Origin: a virus
Direction: 5' to 3' (one strand)
Length of the DNA stretch: 26,994 nucleotides
IMG/VR virus record: IMGVR_UViG_3300045996_000689
Span: 1-26,994 of that record
The translations under genes and the position numbers were made by a program. The notes under the pieces are model-generated. The model made no database searches and had not been told where the DNA came from. It saw only the letters and a program-made list of their open reading frames with translations. The first letter of the stretch is position 1, and the number at the start of each line of letters is the position of its first letter. Below, in pieces: positions 592 to 7,323 of the stretch.

Positions 592-1416
592 GTGACGGCA
601 TCCGTCCCCGCTCCCGAGTTCGATGCCCTGGCACCTTTCCGAGTGCCGCTGAGCAGTCTTCACCCGTCCGAGCGGAACCCCCGTATCGGTGTCATCCCTG
701 CGATCGCAGAGTCGCTGGCGACCAACGGGCAGTACCGCCCGATCGTGGTCCGCGCCGACGGGGAGATCCTGGCAGGCAACCACACCTGGAAGGCAGCCGC
801 GTCCCTCGGCTGGACTGAGATCGCTGTCGTCCGGGTCGACGTCACCGACGAGCAGGCTGCCCGCATCATGCTCGCGGACAACCGCACGGCTGACCTCGGC
901 GGCTACGACGACGCCGCCCTGCTCGCCCTGCTGCAGGAGGTGCAGGAGGTCGACCTCGCGCTGACGGGCACGGGCTACAGCCCCGACGACCTGGAACTCC
1001 TCCTCGGGATCACCGAGGCCGACGAGCCGACCGTCTACAGCCGCAAGGTCGACCCGATCCAGTACGTCCCGACGATGGAGGAGCCGCCCCCGTGCGCCGA
1101 ACTCGTGGACCGCACCAAGGCCTCAGCGCTGCTCGACGCGATCGACGCCGCCGCGATCCCCGAGGAGGTGCGCGACTTCCTGCGGGCAGGCGCGATGCGG
1201 CACCTCGTGTTCGACTACGCCCGGATCGCAGAGTTCTACAGCCACGCCGACGCTGAGGTCCAGGCGCTGATGGAGGCCTCGGCCCTGGTCATTGTCGACT
1301 TCGACGACGCGATCCACCACGGCTTCGTCAGGCTGAGCACCCGCCTGCAGGGACTGCTCGACCTCGACCTGGCCGACCGTCCCGCCTACGACGCGGCGGC
1401 TGGTCGCGGTGCGTGA
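592..1416 (+). CDS. ParB-like nuclease-domain protein
   Basis: This is a 274-aa protein. Residues about 15-100 form a ParB/sulfiredoxin-type domain: conserved NPR near residue 30, an I-x2-SL-x2-NGQ helix, PIVV, the DG-x-ILAGNHTW-x-AA loop, and TDEQA-x-RIMLADNRT. These are hallmarks of ParB-like proteins in phages and mobile DNA, not of the chromosome-partition protein with its HTH. The remainder (about 110-274) is not recognised. It overlaps the next gene, a glycosyltransferase, by 8 nt. In phage DNA-hypermodification loci ParB-like proteins often accompany such transferases, so a role in base modification or DNA recognition is inferred. The GTG start lacks a ribosome binding site (see promoter at 557-585). 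Confidence 0.85.
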   Translation: MTASVPAPEFDALAPFRVPLSSLHPSERNPRIGVIPAIAESLATNGQYRPIVVRADGEILAGNHTWKAAASLGWTEIAVVRVDVTDEQAARIMLADNRTADLGGYDDAALLALLQEVQEVDLALTGTGYSPDDLELLLGITEADEPTVYSRKVDPIQYVPTMEEPPPCAELVDRTKASALLDAIDAAAIPEEVRDFLRAGAMRHLVFDYARIAEFYSHADAEVQALMEASALVIVDFDDAIHHGFVRLSTRLQGLLDLDLADRPAYDAAAGRGA

Positions 1417-2275
1417 CGACTTCGGCGTCTTCATCCTGACCCACGGCAGACCTGCCGGGGTCTCTGCCACGCTCGGGGCTCTGCGCCGTGCGCGGTACAC
1501 GGGCAAGTGGTGGCTGGTCCTCGACACCGACGACGAGACGGTCCACGACTACGCCCAGCGCTGGGGTGCTGAGCACATCCTCACCTTCGACAAAGACGAG
1601 GAGGCGAAGCGATTCGACCTCGCGGACAACCGGGATCACCCGCGCGGCGTCATCGTCTACGCCCGCAACGCTGCAGCCCGCCTCGCTGCTGAGATGGGCC
1701 TGCGGTACTACATGCAGTTGGACGACGACTACTCGTACTTCGCGCACCGCTTCCAGCGCGGCGACACTGCTCTCCTGGACTACGCCTACACGTTCCGATT
1801 CGATGACGTGCTGGAGGCCTTCGTCGACTTCCTGGAGGACTCCGGGGCTCTCACCGTCGCGTTCGCTCAGGGCGGGGACTACATCGGCGGGCTCCCCGGT
1901 GACTGGTCCCGCGTGGTCGTGAAGCGCAAGGCCATGAACACCTTCATCGCGCGCGTCGACAGGCCGATCGACTTCGTCGGCAGGATCAACGAGGACGTCA
2001 ACACGTACGTCTGGCGCGGGGGTCAGGGTGATCTCTTCCTCACGATGACCGACTTCATGGTCGAGCAGAAGGAGACCCAGTCGCAGGGCGGCGGGATGAC
2101 CGGGGCGTACGTCGACGGAGGGACCTACGTCAAGTCGTTCTACAGCGTGCTCTTCAACCCGTCATGCGTGAAGGTCGCCACCCTCGGAGAGGCGCACGAC
2201 CGGCTCCACCACCAGATCGCCTGGAACAACGCGGTGCCGAAGATCGTCAGCGGCAGCCACCACCGCGCGGCGTGA
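1409..2275 (+). CDS. TET-associated-type GT-A glycosyltransferase
   Basis: This is a 288-aa protein of a phage glycosyltransferase family with a GT-A fold. The N-terminus FGVFILTHGRP is typical of the family. So are the nucleotide-sugar strand WWLVLDTDDE, the VIVYARNAAA segment and the metal-binding YYMQLDDDYSYF (about residues 105-116) with its DxD acids. Related enzymes were predicted to glycosylate oxidised bases in phage DNA. No TET/JBP oxygenase or hydroxymethylase is recognisable in this window, so the acceptor is open: a base made by host or unknown enzymes, or a virion protein. GTG start inside the ParB-like gene implies translational coupling. The family call is from motif recognition; a generic glycosyltransferase is the fallback. 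Confidence 0.75.
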   Translation: MRDDFGVFILTHGRPAGVSATLGALRRARYTGKWWLVLDTDDETVHDYAQRWGAEHILTFDKDEEAKRFDLADNRDHPRGVIVYARNAAARLAAEMGLRYYMQLDDDYSYFAHRFQRGDTALLDYAYTFRFDDVLEAFVDFLEDSGALTVAFAQGGDYIGGLPGDWSRVVVKRKAMNTFIARVDRPIDFVGRINEDVNTYVWRGGQGDLFLTMTDFMVEQKETQSQGGGMTGAYVDGGTYVKSFYSVLFNPSCVKVATLGEAHDRLHHQIAWNNAVPKIVSGSHHRAA

Positions 2276-4073: not shown

Positions 4074-5351
4074 ATGAGCGTGCTGACTGAGATCCGCGCC
4101 GCCGTCGGGCGGCTCTTCACCGCCACCGACGGACGAGACGTGCTGCAGAACACCCCGGACGGCTGGGAGATCGACAAGCCGTGGCTGTGGTGGGACGGGC
4201 CTGCAGGCAGCAGCGACGGCACCGGAGGCCCGTGGGGGAACCCGCTGCCCGGGGCTGACATGCCGTACGCCATGAAGGGCTCAGCGATCCCCGCTATGGC
4301 CCGCTGCCGGTCGCTGATCTGCGACGTCCTGGCAGGTGTCCCCTGGAAGGTCTACCGAGGCCGCGAGCAGTTGACCACCCCGTCGTGGATCGCTGACCCC
4401 CAGGGCTTGAACAACGACGGTCGTCGAGGCTCCTCGGTCGCTCCCGTGTCGCTGAGCGCCGTCGAGTTCTGGAGCCAGACCCTGCTGTCTGCCGTCGAAC
4501 TCGGGGAGGCGGTCCTCTACAGCCCGTTCGTCGGTGAGGTCGACGAGGCAGGGAAGGCGATCGCCTGGGGCTCGCGCGGAATCTTCTCGCTGAACCCGCT
4601 GGAGGTGAAGCGCGAGGGCGGCGCATGGGTCGTCAACCGTCAGGTCATCCCCGACTCCGATTTGCTCTTCATCCGCAACCGCGTCTGGCCCGGGCAGACC
4701 CGAGGCCTCGGCGTCTGGCAGCAGTTCGCCTCCGAGATCGGGTTCGCTGAGAACGTCCGCTCGTACGGCTCAGGCCTGCTAGGGCGCGGCATCCCTGCTG
4801 GCTACCTGAAGGTCACCGCACCCGACCTGGAGCAGGGCGAGGCAGACAAGTTGAAGGAGCGGTGGATGGCCGCGCACGGCGGTACGACGCGCCGCATCGC
4901 GGTCCTCAACGCGACGACAGACTTCAAGCCTCTGGAGATCAACCCCGAGGCAGTGCAACTGGCCGAGTTGCTGAAGTTGTCCGCCTGGGAGGTAGCCCTC
5001 ATGTACGGGGTCCCGCCCTACAAGTTGGGGATCTCGATGGGCTACTCCAACACGTACGCCAACATCGAGTCGGCCAGCATCGACTACGTCCAGGACGCGC
5101 TCCTGCCCTGGGCTCGCCGCATCGAGTCCGCGATCGACTCCAAGTTGGCGCACGGCACGAGCCTGAAGATCGACCTCGACGGGCTGCAGCGCGCCGACAC
5201 TGCTGCCCGCTTCTCGTCGTACGAGATCGCGCTCCGCAACGGCTTCATGACCAAGGAGGAGATCCGCACCCTGGAGGACCTTCCGCCGCAGGCCGATGAG
5301 GGCAGCACCATCCCACTCCAGGTCGTCCCCGAGGAGGAGGCAACCGCATGA
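4074..5351 (+). CDS. Portal protein (HK97 type)
   Basis: This 425-aa protein starts 2 nt after the terminase stop. HK97-family portal features include the N-terminal region with AMKGSAIPAMARCRSLI, the core strand block EFWSQTLLSAVELGEAV, and the conserved stretch VALMYGVPPYKLGISMGYSNTY (crown/clip region), followed by the DYVQDALLPWARRIESAIDSKL helix. Twelve copies form the vertex ring through which DNA enters and to which terminase and tail connector dock. The C-terminus ends in acidic residues. It overlaps the protease gene by four bases (ATGA). Confidence 0.93.
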   Translation: MSVLTEIRAAVGRLFTATDGRDVLQNTPDGWEIDKPWLWWDGPAGSSDGTGGPWGNPLPGADMPYAMKGSAIPAMARCRSLICDVLAGVPWKVYRGREQLTTPSWIADPQGLNNDGRRGSSVAPVSLSAVEFWSQTLLSAVELGEAVLYSPFVGEVDEAGKAIAWGSRGIFSLNPLEVKREGGAWVVNRQVIPDSDLLFIRNRVWPGQTRGLGVWQQFASEIGFAENVRSYGSGLLGRGIPAGYLKVTAPDLEQGEADKLKERWMAAHGGTTRRIAVLNATTDFKPLEINPEAVQLAELLKLSAWEVALMYGVPPYKLGISMGYSNTYANIESASIDYVQDALLPWARRIESAIDSKLAHGTSLKIDLDGLQRADTAARFSSYEIALRNGFMTKEEIRTLEDLPPQADEGSTIPLQVVPEEEATA

Positions 5352-5917
5352 GCACAGAGAGCACGATCGTCCCGCTGGAACTACGACGCGGGGCTGACGA
5401 GAACACCCTGGAGGGGATCTGCGTCCCGTACGGGGTCACCACCACGAAGGCAGGGCACGCCAACGGCGAGCGCTTCCTCCCGGGAGCCTTCGCGGACCTC
5501 GACGCCCGCAACAAGATCAGGCTGACTGACTCCCACCTGGAGGGCGAGTTCCGTCGCCCGGTCGGTGTCGGCATCGAGTTCCGGGACACCCCGACAGGGC
5601 TGCTCGGGCGCTTCCGGTTCTACGCCACGCCGGAGGGACGAGGAGCCCGCGAGAACGTCATCGAGGAGACGTACGGCGGGCTCTCCGTCGGCTTCCTGCC
5701 CGTGCAGGAGCAGACCGGCAGCGACGGCGCGCGAGAGATCGTCCGCGCCCGCTTGTTCCACGTCAGCCTGGTCGACGAGCCTGCCTACGACGACGCCAAG
5801 GTCCTCGCGGTGCGGAGTGCTGCCTCAGAGGACGTGCGAGCGCTTCTGAGCGTGTCGTACGACCCCGGGGACTACCCCGACCCGCCTGACCTGACGGGGC
5901 TCGTGTGGGGCCGTTGA
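5348..5917 (+). CDS. Prohead (capsid maturation) protease
   Basis: This 189-aa serine protease is of the HK97 prohead type. It shows the N-terminal EGICVPYG-type strand, RFLPGAFADL, the catalytic His in LTDSHLEG (about residue 60), the catalytic Ser in YGGLSVGF (about residue 117) and the conserved HVSLVDEPAYDDAKV strand. It cleaves the scaffolding part of the capsid protein and itself during head maturation. No separate scaffold gene is present; the N-terminal part of the capsid protein (charged, helical) probably serves as scaffold. It is translationally coupled to the portal gene by an ATGA overlap. Confidence 0.92.
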   Translation: MSTESTIVPLELRRGADENTLEGICVPYGVTTTKAGHANGERFLPGAFADLDARNKIRLTDSHLEGEFRRPVGVGIEFRDTPTGLLGRFRFYATPEGRGARENVIEETYGGLSVGFLPVQEQTGSDGAREIVRARLFHVSLVDEPAYDDAKVLAVRSAASEDVRALLSVSYDPGDYPDPPDLTGLVWGR

Positions 5918-5941: not shown

Positions 5942-6030
5942 GTCGCCGTAGGCGGTTGAGTCTCGGTAGGGGACTCCCGTCAGGTCTCGGTAGGGGACCG
6001 ACGTCCAGCAGCGGCGTCTCGGTAGGGGAC
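5942..6030 (+). repeat. Direct-repeat cluster between protease and capsid genes
   Basis: GTCTCGGTAGGGGAC occurs exactly at 5960-5974, 5984-5998 and 6016-6030. A degenerate copy (10 of 15 matching) lies at 5942-5956. Spacings are 18, 24 and 32 bp from start to start. The repeats fill most of the 149-bp gap 5918-6066, the only sizeable gap in the head and tail genes. An in-frame upstream extension of the capsid gene would cross them, but the strong ribosome binding site at 6056-6061 favours a start after them. They may bind a repressor (stoperator-like), act as a transcription-initiation array, or set capsid mRNA level. Confidence 0.85.
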
Positions 6031-6066
6031 ACGCGATCCGAAGCGATCCGTGCCCAGGAGGCACCC

Positions 6067-7323
6067 GTGAACACCTACCTTCGCTCCAAGATCGAGGAGC
6101 GCGCGAGCCAGTCGGCCCTGCTCCAGTCGATGCAGACCCGCGCGGCTGACGACAAGCGGGACCTCACCGAGGCCGAGACCAAGACGTTCGACGAGATCGT
6201 CGCCCGCCTGAAGGATCTCGACGAGCAGATCAAGCGGATCTCCGAGTTCGACCAGGGCGCGGCCAAGTTCGCCTCCCTCGTCGGCGCACAGAAGGAGGCA
6301 GAGGAGGAGGCCGAGCGCGCGCACGACGACGCTGCGAAGCCTGACCCCGACCGCGAGCCCGCCGAGGCCCGTAGCGTCGACTACGGCAAGCGGTTCGTCG
6401 AGTCGACCGCCTTCCGGAACTACCGGGGCGCTGGCACCTCCGAGCGGCTGACCCTGCCTGGCCCTGCCTCCGCCGAGTTCCGCGCAGCGATCACGACCGG
6501 CAACGTCGGGCTGACTGCCTACACCGGCCCGGTCCCGCAGATCTGGTCAGGTCCTGCAGCGCCGACGTTCCCGACGACCGTGCTCGACATGGTCGGACGG
6601 GTCGCGACGTCGCAGTCCGCCGTCATGTACCTCACCTGGCAGCCGCAGCCCCCGGGCAACGCGCCGGTCGTGGCTGAGGGAGACCTGAAGCAGGAAGCGA
6701 TCATGGACGCCGTCGAGGCGACGATCGCGCTGCAGACGTACGCCCACTACAAGGCGGTCACCCGTCAGGCGCTGGAGGACATTCCGCAGATCCAGACGAT
6801 CATCCAGAACCGGCTCCTGTCCGGGGTGCGGTCGGCTCTCGACGCCGCTGCTGTGGCTGCTCTCCTCGCCGCCTCCCCGACTGCCGTGGACGGTGACGGC
6901 AACTTCATGCAGGCAGTCCGTGCCGCGATCGCGACGGTGGAGTCTCAGGGCTTCAAGCCGAACGCGGTGCTCCTGAACCCGCAGGACGCGGCGATGATCG
7001 ACATGCAGGCCATGTTCGAGACCGTCGATGGTGCCGTGCGCAACGGCGCGGTCTGGGGTCTCCCGATCGTGTCCTCGGCGTCGATCCCTGCAGGGACCGC
7101 GTACGTCGGCGACTTCAAGACCGGGCTGACCTGGTTCGACCGTGGCAACACGGACGTCTTCATGAGCGACAGCCACGCCGACTTCTTCCTCCGGAACCAG
7201 TTGGTGATCCTCGCGGAGGCTCGGGCCGCGTTCGCCGTCACGGAGGTCGCGGCCCTGGCCGAGGCCACCGCTGGAGTCGCCCCCGTCGCCGCATCGGCGT
7301 CGAGCAGCAGCAAGAGCAAGTAG
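6067..7323 (+). CDS. Major capsid protein (HK97 fold)
   Basis: This is a 418-aa protein. AGGAGG (6056-6061) lies 5 nt upstream of the GTG at 6067. Residues 1-110 are charged and coiled-coil-like (KIEERASQSALLQ, then KTFDEIVARLKDLDEQIKRI, then acid-rich), as in HK97-type capsids whose N-terminal delta domain acts as scaffold and is removed by the protease. The mature shell domain follows, with GNVGLTAYTGPVPQIW, the YKAVTRQALEDIPQIQTII spine helix, and the A-domain LLNPQDAAMIDMQ and GLPIVSSASIPAGTAYVGDF. The C-terminus is Ala/Ser-rich ending in Ser/Lys. It forms the icosahedral shell. Confidence 0.93.
   Translation: MNTYLRSKIEERASQSALLQSMQTRAADDKRDLTEAETKTFDEIVARLKDLDEQIKRISEFDQGAAKFASLVGAQKEAEEEAERAHDDAAKPDPDREPAEARSVDYGKRFVESTAFRNYRGAGTSERLTLPGPASAEFRAAITTGNVGLTAYTGPVPQIWSGPAAPTFPTTVLDMVGRVATSQSAVMYLTWQPQPPGNAPVVAEGDLKQEAIMDAVEATIALQTYAHYKAVTRQALEDIPQIQTIIQNRLLSGVRSALDAAAVAALLAASPTAVDGDGNFMQAVRAAIATVESQGFKPNAVLLNPQDAAMIDMQAMFETVDGAVRNGAVWGLPIVSSASIPAGTAYVGDFKTGLTWFDRGNTDVFMSDSHADFFLRNQLVILAEARAAFAVTEVAALAEATAGVAPVAASASSSSKSK

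Follow-up and report, generated by a model that had tools for sequence, protein, structure and literature searches.

The repeats of the 15-nt sequence GTCTCGGTAGGGGAC between the prohead protease and major capsid protein genes of the virus IMGVR_UViG_3300045996_000689 are RNA hairpins, and it is near certain that they constitute a structured RNA element of the capsid leader. A regulatory role of this hairpin array is likely. We propose, with a probability of about 0.57, that the scaffold (delta) domain of the unassembled capsid protein reads it as a translational operator, which would place capsid synthesis under assembly-coupled feedback. The window analyzed here is the whole stretch of 26,994 nt (positions 1 to 26,994 of the record), and the features discussed below are as follows.

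5348..5917, + strand: prohead protease (Peptidase_S78)
5942..5956, + strand: degenerate fourth copy GTCGCCGTAGGCGGT, hairpin GUCGC-CGUAG-GCGGU, paired, with an off-consensus loop (marginal)
5958..5976, + strand: array hairpin 1, GAGUCUC-GGUAG-GGGACUC, 7 bp, supported by covariation
5983..5999, + strand: array hairpin 2, GGUCUC-GGUAG-GGGACC, 6 bp
6014..6034, + strand: array hairpin 3, GUCUC-GGUAG-GGGAC, with a GC/GC extension beyond a 2-nt bulge (AC)
6035..6048, + strand: weak terminal stem GAUC-CGAAGC-GAUC, identified by eye
6050..6064, + strand: possible RBS hairpin GUGCC-CAGGA-GGCAC, a thermodynamic prediction, containing part of the Shine-Dalgarno sequence AGGAGG (6056-6061)
6067..7323, + strand: HK97-type major capsid protein with an N-terminal scaffold (delta) domain, GTG start, the gene under proposed control
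6076..6108, + strand: conserved block YLRSKIEERAS, capsid codons 4-14, a putative RNA-reading helix

Repeats and hairpins in the capsid leader

The original prediction reported three exact, irregularly spaced repeats in the non-coding gap between the protease and capsid genes, with a sequence not seen elsewhere in the window, and these observations hold. The copies are located at 5960-5974, 5984-5998 and 6016-6030 of the + strand (start-to-start spacing of 24 and 32 nt), the gap extends 3' of position 5917 to the capsid GTG at 6067, and a search of the whole record revealed no further copy with up to 2 mismatches. At up to 3 mismatches the window contains 7 matches versus 1.4 expected, a number reached by 0 of 100 shuffles. 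What the prediction did not mention is that each copy corresponds to an RNA hairpin on the + strand, GUCUC-GGUAG-GGGAC, and that pairing of neighboring bases lengthens the stem to 7 bp (copy 1) or 6 bp (copy 2); the outer pairs of hairpin 3, past the bulge, are retained in most relatives. The 149-nt leader contains three C-GNYAN-G hairpins with at least 5 pairs, versus 0.018 on average in shuffles (0/2000); this constant loop class exceeds the shuffles, with variant-loop exceptions in the related loci L026, L088 and L089 (see below).

The degenerate fourth repeat was borne out only in part: it is present at 5942-5956 and all five of its stem pairs are kept through changes (GU, UG, CG, GC, CG), but the loop (CGTAG) is off-consensus, and we regard this copy as marginal because the closest relative, L026, does not keep it. 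The 3' end of the window array is 36 nt away from the capsid start, with the Shine-Dalgarno sequence outside the array. The form of the possible RBS hairpin is not conserved, and the global fold of the leader is no better than that of shuffles (z -0.5).

Two long-range pairings of hairpin 3 were considered and rejected. Pairing with the Shine-Dalgarno region was not significant when leaders were swapped between phages (p 0.08-0.13), and pairing with the capsid codons (GGUAGG/CCUACC) gave p 0.74 in the swap test. The capsid codons xCC-TAC-C (window 6073-6081), complementary to the loop GGUAGG, are found in 5/5 of the GGUAG-loop phages and in no others; a swap test based on duplex energies gave their pairing with the loop no support. 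Elsewhere in the window (592-2275), 5' of the terminase, we observed a ParB-like gene and a match to phage alpha-glucosyltransferase (phrog_842, E 4e-62), which possibly form a DNA-modification cassette.

Homologous arrays and covariation of the stems

Relatives were collected by protein searches with the capsid and protease sequences and by a scan for a two-copy pattern. The scan of viral contigs for the exact 15-mer returned 19 single matches, approximately the number expected by chance, with L013 as the sole true relative. Many matches of the two-copy scan of viral contigs were coding tandem repeats, and the two-copy core pattern was not above the reversed control in 396 actinobacterial genomes. 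Nine homologous loci were obtained, namely L023, L024/L025, L026/L028, L029, L030, L031, L067 and L089/L090 from IMG/VR and L088, a prophage in Xylanimicrobium pachnodae. The original prediction had suggested a search of related phages for repeats at this position and counted their absence from close relatives among the refuting findings; instead, an array of about 3-4 hairpins was found in the same protease-capsid gap in 9/9 of these loci. The L023 array comprises two strong hairpins and a weaker third, while in L088 an imperfect hairpin is present three times. The distance from the end of the proximal hairpin to the start codon, measured in eight loci, is 36-46 nt.

Both between phages and between copies, the stems vary in sequence with retention of pairing, and the loops of the copies within one genome are alike while the stems differ. 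In the alignment of 23 hairpins from 7 loci, 90.1% of the cells are paired, 26 cells exhibit double changes, and a compensatory (double) change is found at 6 of the 7 pairs. The covariation score is 0.488 versus 0.202 in shuffles (0/500) and collapses if the pairing register is slid by one column (slid registers ≤0.128). Among the non-Watson-Crick cells of the inner five pairs, read on the + strand, there are 19 G-U versus 1 A-C, which identifies the capsid-sense (+ strand) RNA as the paired molecule, although the 19 G-U cells do not represent 19 independent events, because 16 of them sit in one pair. On the strength of these compensatory changes at the homologous position in relatives, we assign the repeats to a class proposed here, the conserved cis-acting RNA hairpin arrays. 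Most copies have the loop GGUAG, GACAG, GCUAG or GAUAG; the variants are GGUACG in L089, GCAC in L088, and GGUCG, GUUCG and GUCG in L026. A covariance model of the family (R1) gave strong matches only at the protease-capsid gap in the scanned stretches of the family contigs, and it also ranks the L089/L090 copies, which were outside its training set.

Of the three roles suggested in the original prediction, an RNA element governing the capsid mRNA is the one favored by the compensatory changes and the strand-specific G-U wobbles, while stoperator-like repressor binding and a promoter array had to be abandoned. DNA repressor sites (stoperators or operators) or promoters would be in keeping with exact repeats in an intergenic gap and with the serine integrase and HTH regulator that the phage encodes. 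A DNA operator, however, would conserve its half-sites and let the spacer drift, and the opposite pattern is seen here: the arms change in a compensatory manner, with U-G wobbles on one strand, the loop (i.e. the spacer) is kept, and the array is present at one locus only. No promoter-like match was found, and the hairpins alone are conserved. Thus, an explanation at the DNA level is strongly disfavored.

Inspection by eye revealed an extra terminal stem between the array and the Shine-Dalgarno sequence in L023, L024, L029, L030, L067, L088 and L089. Its arms vary (GCGAA/UUCGC, GCGAU/AUCGC, GCGGA/UCCGC, AGAUC/GAUCU or CAGAUC/GAUCUG) and its loop is not conserved. In L067 (600-640) and L030 (3380-3430) the protease frame appears to reach the first hairpin or its vicinity, so the array may start at or within the end of the protease gene.

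Conserved N-terminal block of the capsid protein

The capsid protein is best conserved at residues 1-14 (mean 0.90, versus 0.72 over the remaining delta domain), with 9 of the 14 positions invariant. Residues 3-28 are predicted to form an N-terminal helix that contains the block YLRxKIEERAS (pLDDT of the block 74-83), in an AlphaFold model that is reliable for approximately residues 1-60 only, most of the rest being poor. Capsid proteins of array-bearing phages begin with Y[LI]xxK[IV][ED]ER. The array is missing in known phages with similar capsids (OnionKnight, mu1/6, Galaxy, Charlie and Armstrong), and the N-terminal block is absent from the capsids of these phages as well as from that of L027, i.e. 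from six array-less capsids. The likeness of YLRxKIEERAS to the motif of scaffold proteins described below was judged by eye.

Hairpins before head scaffold genes

Four further contigs matched by the two-copy scan encode unrelated capsids; here a scaffold gene is directly preceded by two hairpins that have the core CCCGACAGGGG. A scan of IMG/VR for TCCCGACAGGGGA followed by ATG within 4-14 nt yielded at least 120 stretches, 119 of them usable; among the matches listed, an ORF of at least 100 aa follows in 78/119 cases, versus 18/87 for the control TCCCAGCAGGGGA with the same stem and a permuted loop. Among these matches, the ORFs following TCCCGACAGGGGA encode mostly head scaffold proteins, assigned through PHROGs or a motif. 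In a less redundant set of 65 downstream proteins, 39 match a single family, the commonest scaffold PHROG, and additional proteins match other scaffold PHROGs. Among the proteins downstream of the loop-permuted control, 0/12 matched a scaffold family. A second hairpin is present upstream in 62 loci, selected among the matches listed for a scaffold-like motif; its loop, picked by stem strength only, has G at position 1 in 28/32, C at position 3 in 30/32 and A at position 4 in 29/32 cases, while positions 2 and 5 are free.

These data bear on the possibility that the hairpins are purely structural, serving as a shield against 5' decay or as a processing mark, with a loop that is unread by any protein. 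Leader hairpins often stabilize mRNA, and an abundant capsid message is required. Nonetheless, the loops are retained while the stems change, the link to scaffold genes disappears when the loop is permuted, and the terminal stem of the same leaders has no kept loop, all of which makes a purely structural role quite unlikely.

In the leaders of scaffold genes, the Shine-Dalgarno position is taken by the 3' arm (GGGGA) of the proximal hairpin, or else the Shine-Dalgarno sequence follows immediately; judged from the sequence, such placement is the anatomy of a translational operator. The same hairpins were found in Samy, Yvonnetastic, Bantam, ClubL, OneUp and the M. abscessus prophage prophi68-1 (GACAUG loop), all of which were picked by scaffold homology and not by RNA. 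Success, Ibantik, Ponzi and P318 possess two CCGAAAUGG hairpins instead, and Wrigley and Confidence are without the RBS hairpin. The class spans unrelated phages of Streptomyces, Gordonia, Mycobacterium and Bifidobacterium.

In some scaffold-type phages (loci L108, L109 and L110, upstream of the scaffold gene, and L384), a T-run comes after the first hairpin, which resembles an intrinsic terminator with the loop of the RBS hairpin; attenuation may have been added there. Transcription attenuation or antitermination (put- or nut-like), with the hairpins acting on RNA polymerase, could draw on such T-runs, present in Success, Ibantik, P318 and BigBern1, as a general explanation. In the window, however, no hairpin is followed by a T-run and no terminator-like match was found, and we consider this explanation very unlikely.

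The covariance model of the window family matched the scaffold-type hairpins only weakly (L087, E 0.017), and R1 run on the known scaffold phages gave no significant match at the expected sites. The window array and the scaffold hairpins are therefore parallel by form, not by demonstrated common origin. With this reservation, the window hairpins appear to be part of a similar, widespread class located before the head scaffold or capsid genes of actinobacterial phages.

A scaffold motif accompanying the hairpins

Scaffold proteins encoded downstream of GNCAN hairpins share the motif W-K-x-x-(A/S)-R-K-(H/W/K)-E or a close variant, while those associated with GAAAU loops carry W-K-x-L-S-R-(K/Q/T)-N-E; thus, R[KQT]NE scaffolds go with GAAAU and RKHE scaffolds with GNCAN. 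Wrigley has neither such a motif nor the RBS hairpin. In order to avoid a choice by RNA, scaffolds were gathered with PHROG profiles from the prophages present in up to 396 genomes of actinobacteria. According to a preset rule (at least two class hairpins), hairpins are present in 4/6 cases with the [AS]R-x-[HNWK]-E motif versus 0/21 without it (p 0.0009). The two misses, L331 and L341, had been assigned a wrong start codon, and with a better start each of them reveals three hairpins. After this post hoc correction 6/6 motif scaffolds have hairpins (p 3e-6), though both p-values are overstated, because related phages were counted as independent, and some of the 21 motif-less negatives may be false scaffolds. 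Among the profile-found scaffolds, the loop GCAC or GCAU occurs alongside (A/S)R(K/E)WE, and the Bifidobacterium phage BigBern1 (SRKWE), with two GCAC hairpins, is a seventh case. Shared ancestry confounds the association between motif and loop, which also has exceptions: SRKWE is found with both a pentaloop and a tetraloop. Within a clade of NE/GAAAU, L037 combines KHE with GACAG.

The same RNA operator array could be read by another protein, encoded by the host or by the phage, that represses or activates translation or steadies the mRNA. It would suit a conserved host factor that the 13-nt TCCCGACAGGGGA is identical in Streptomyces and Gordonia phages whose scaffolds are ~20-30% identical. 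Nevertheless, the loop type varies within one host genus (in Streptomyces, GAAAU in Success, Ibantik and Ponzi versus GACAG in Samy) and the presence of hairpins tracks the scaffold motif, which renders such a reader somewhat unlikely.

Proposed mechanism

We infer protein binding, the scaffold (delta) domain as the binder, and translational repression as the outcome; for the window array, analogy points to the delta domain as the best candidate reader. The three (or four) hairpins of 5-7 bp, closed by C-G and exposing the GGUAG pentaloop (of the G-N-Y-A-N form), would act as a translational operator. The delta domains of newly made, unassembled capsid proteins would bind the loops, with several molecules placed next to one another, and block the access of ribosomes to the start site just downstream. 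Repression would require a steric block or spreading, since the Shine-Dalgarno sequence lies outside the window array. Once capsid protein enters proheads, and the protease later removes its delta domain, the leader would become free and synthesis would resume; because the delta domain is removed on maturation, only the unassembled or immature capsid protein would bind.

More tentatively, and with somewhat less than even odds, we speculate that actinobacterial phage scaffolds, either free or fused to the capsid protein as the delta domain, share a short basic/aromatic helix that reads a loop code in tandem hairpins of their own mRNA, and that this provides assembly-coupled feedback across a whole class of tailed phages. 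The proposed code would assign GNCAN or GCAY to RK[HW]E, GNAAU to RxNE, and GNYAG to the fused capsids.

Relation to known systems and significance

The hairpin in the replicase leader of MS2/R17, in which the MS2 loop A-N-Y-A is bound by the coat protein, resembles the array in its combination of a short hairpin, a recognized loop, a translation start and (here proposed) a shell protein as the reader. The differences are that the present system, known here from sequence alone, belongs to a dsDNA tailed phage with the HK97 fold, has 2-4 tandem copies located before the shell or scaffold gene itself, and uses G-N-Y-A-N. Unassembled P22 scaffold reportedly lowers its own synthesis post-transcriptionally and in an assembly-coupled manner (work of King, Hall and Casjens in 1978 and of Wyckoff and Casjens in 1985), and to our knowledge no RNA site of this feedback has been mapped. 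The likeness, drawn from the description of P22 only, lies in the assembly-coupled post-transcriptional feedback that we propose. The GP20-a/b/c motifs are said to be structured RNA candidates upstream of phage scaffold-like genes (Weinberg, 2017) and are similar in this location; they were compared from their description and by a search of Rfam, which gave no match. In Rfam (release 15) no family matched the window and its relatives at the gathering score, nor did the 200-nt leader and the scaffold loci produce any match at relaxed thresholds. The stoperators of mycobacteriophage L5 are likewise repeated short sites of a temperate actinophage, but they are repressor-binding DNA sites dispersed over the genome, whereas the window array is paired RNA at one locus.

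The nearest actinophage precedent is the SAS/ESAS of cluster K mycobacteriophages, which, like the array, are short repeated sequences near start codons. The SAS repeats are asymmetric and 13 bp long, with 11-19 sites per genome (PMC3203893); SAS/ESAS are thought to act in translation initiation, and according to the authors the changes in ESAS do not support RNA pairing (PMC3203893). Unlike these elements (GGGATAGGAGCCC-type 13-mers near many starts), the window array has another sequence, a single location and paired arms, and it does not belong to them. In the open-access literature searched we found no description of the motif or of hairpins in capsid or scaffold leaders.

How tailed phages balance the synthesis of scaffold and capsid proteins with assembly is an old question, to which this analysis contributes a defined RNA motif and, on the protein side, a candidate helix, along with naturally occurring exchanges of loop and residue and named laboratory phages. 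If the proposed mechanism is true, it would reveal an RNA-protein recognition code in phages with the HK97 fold and provide a source of small orthogonal RNA-protein pairs.
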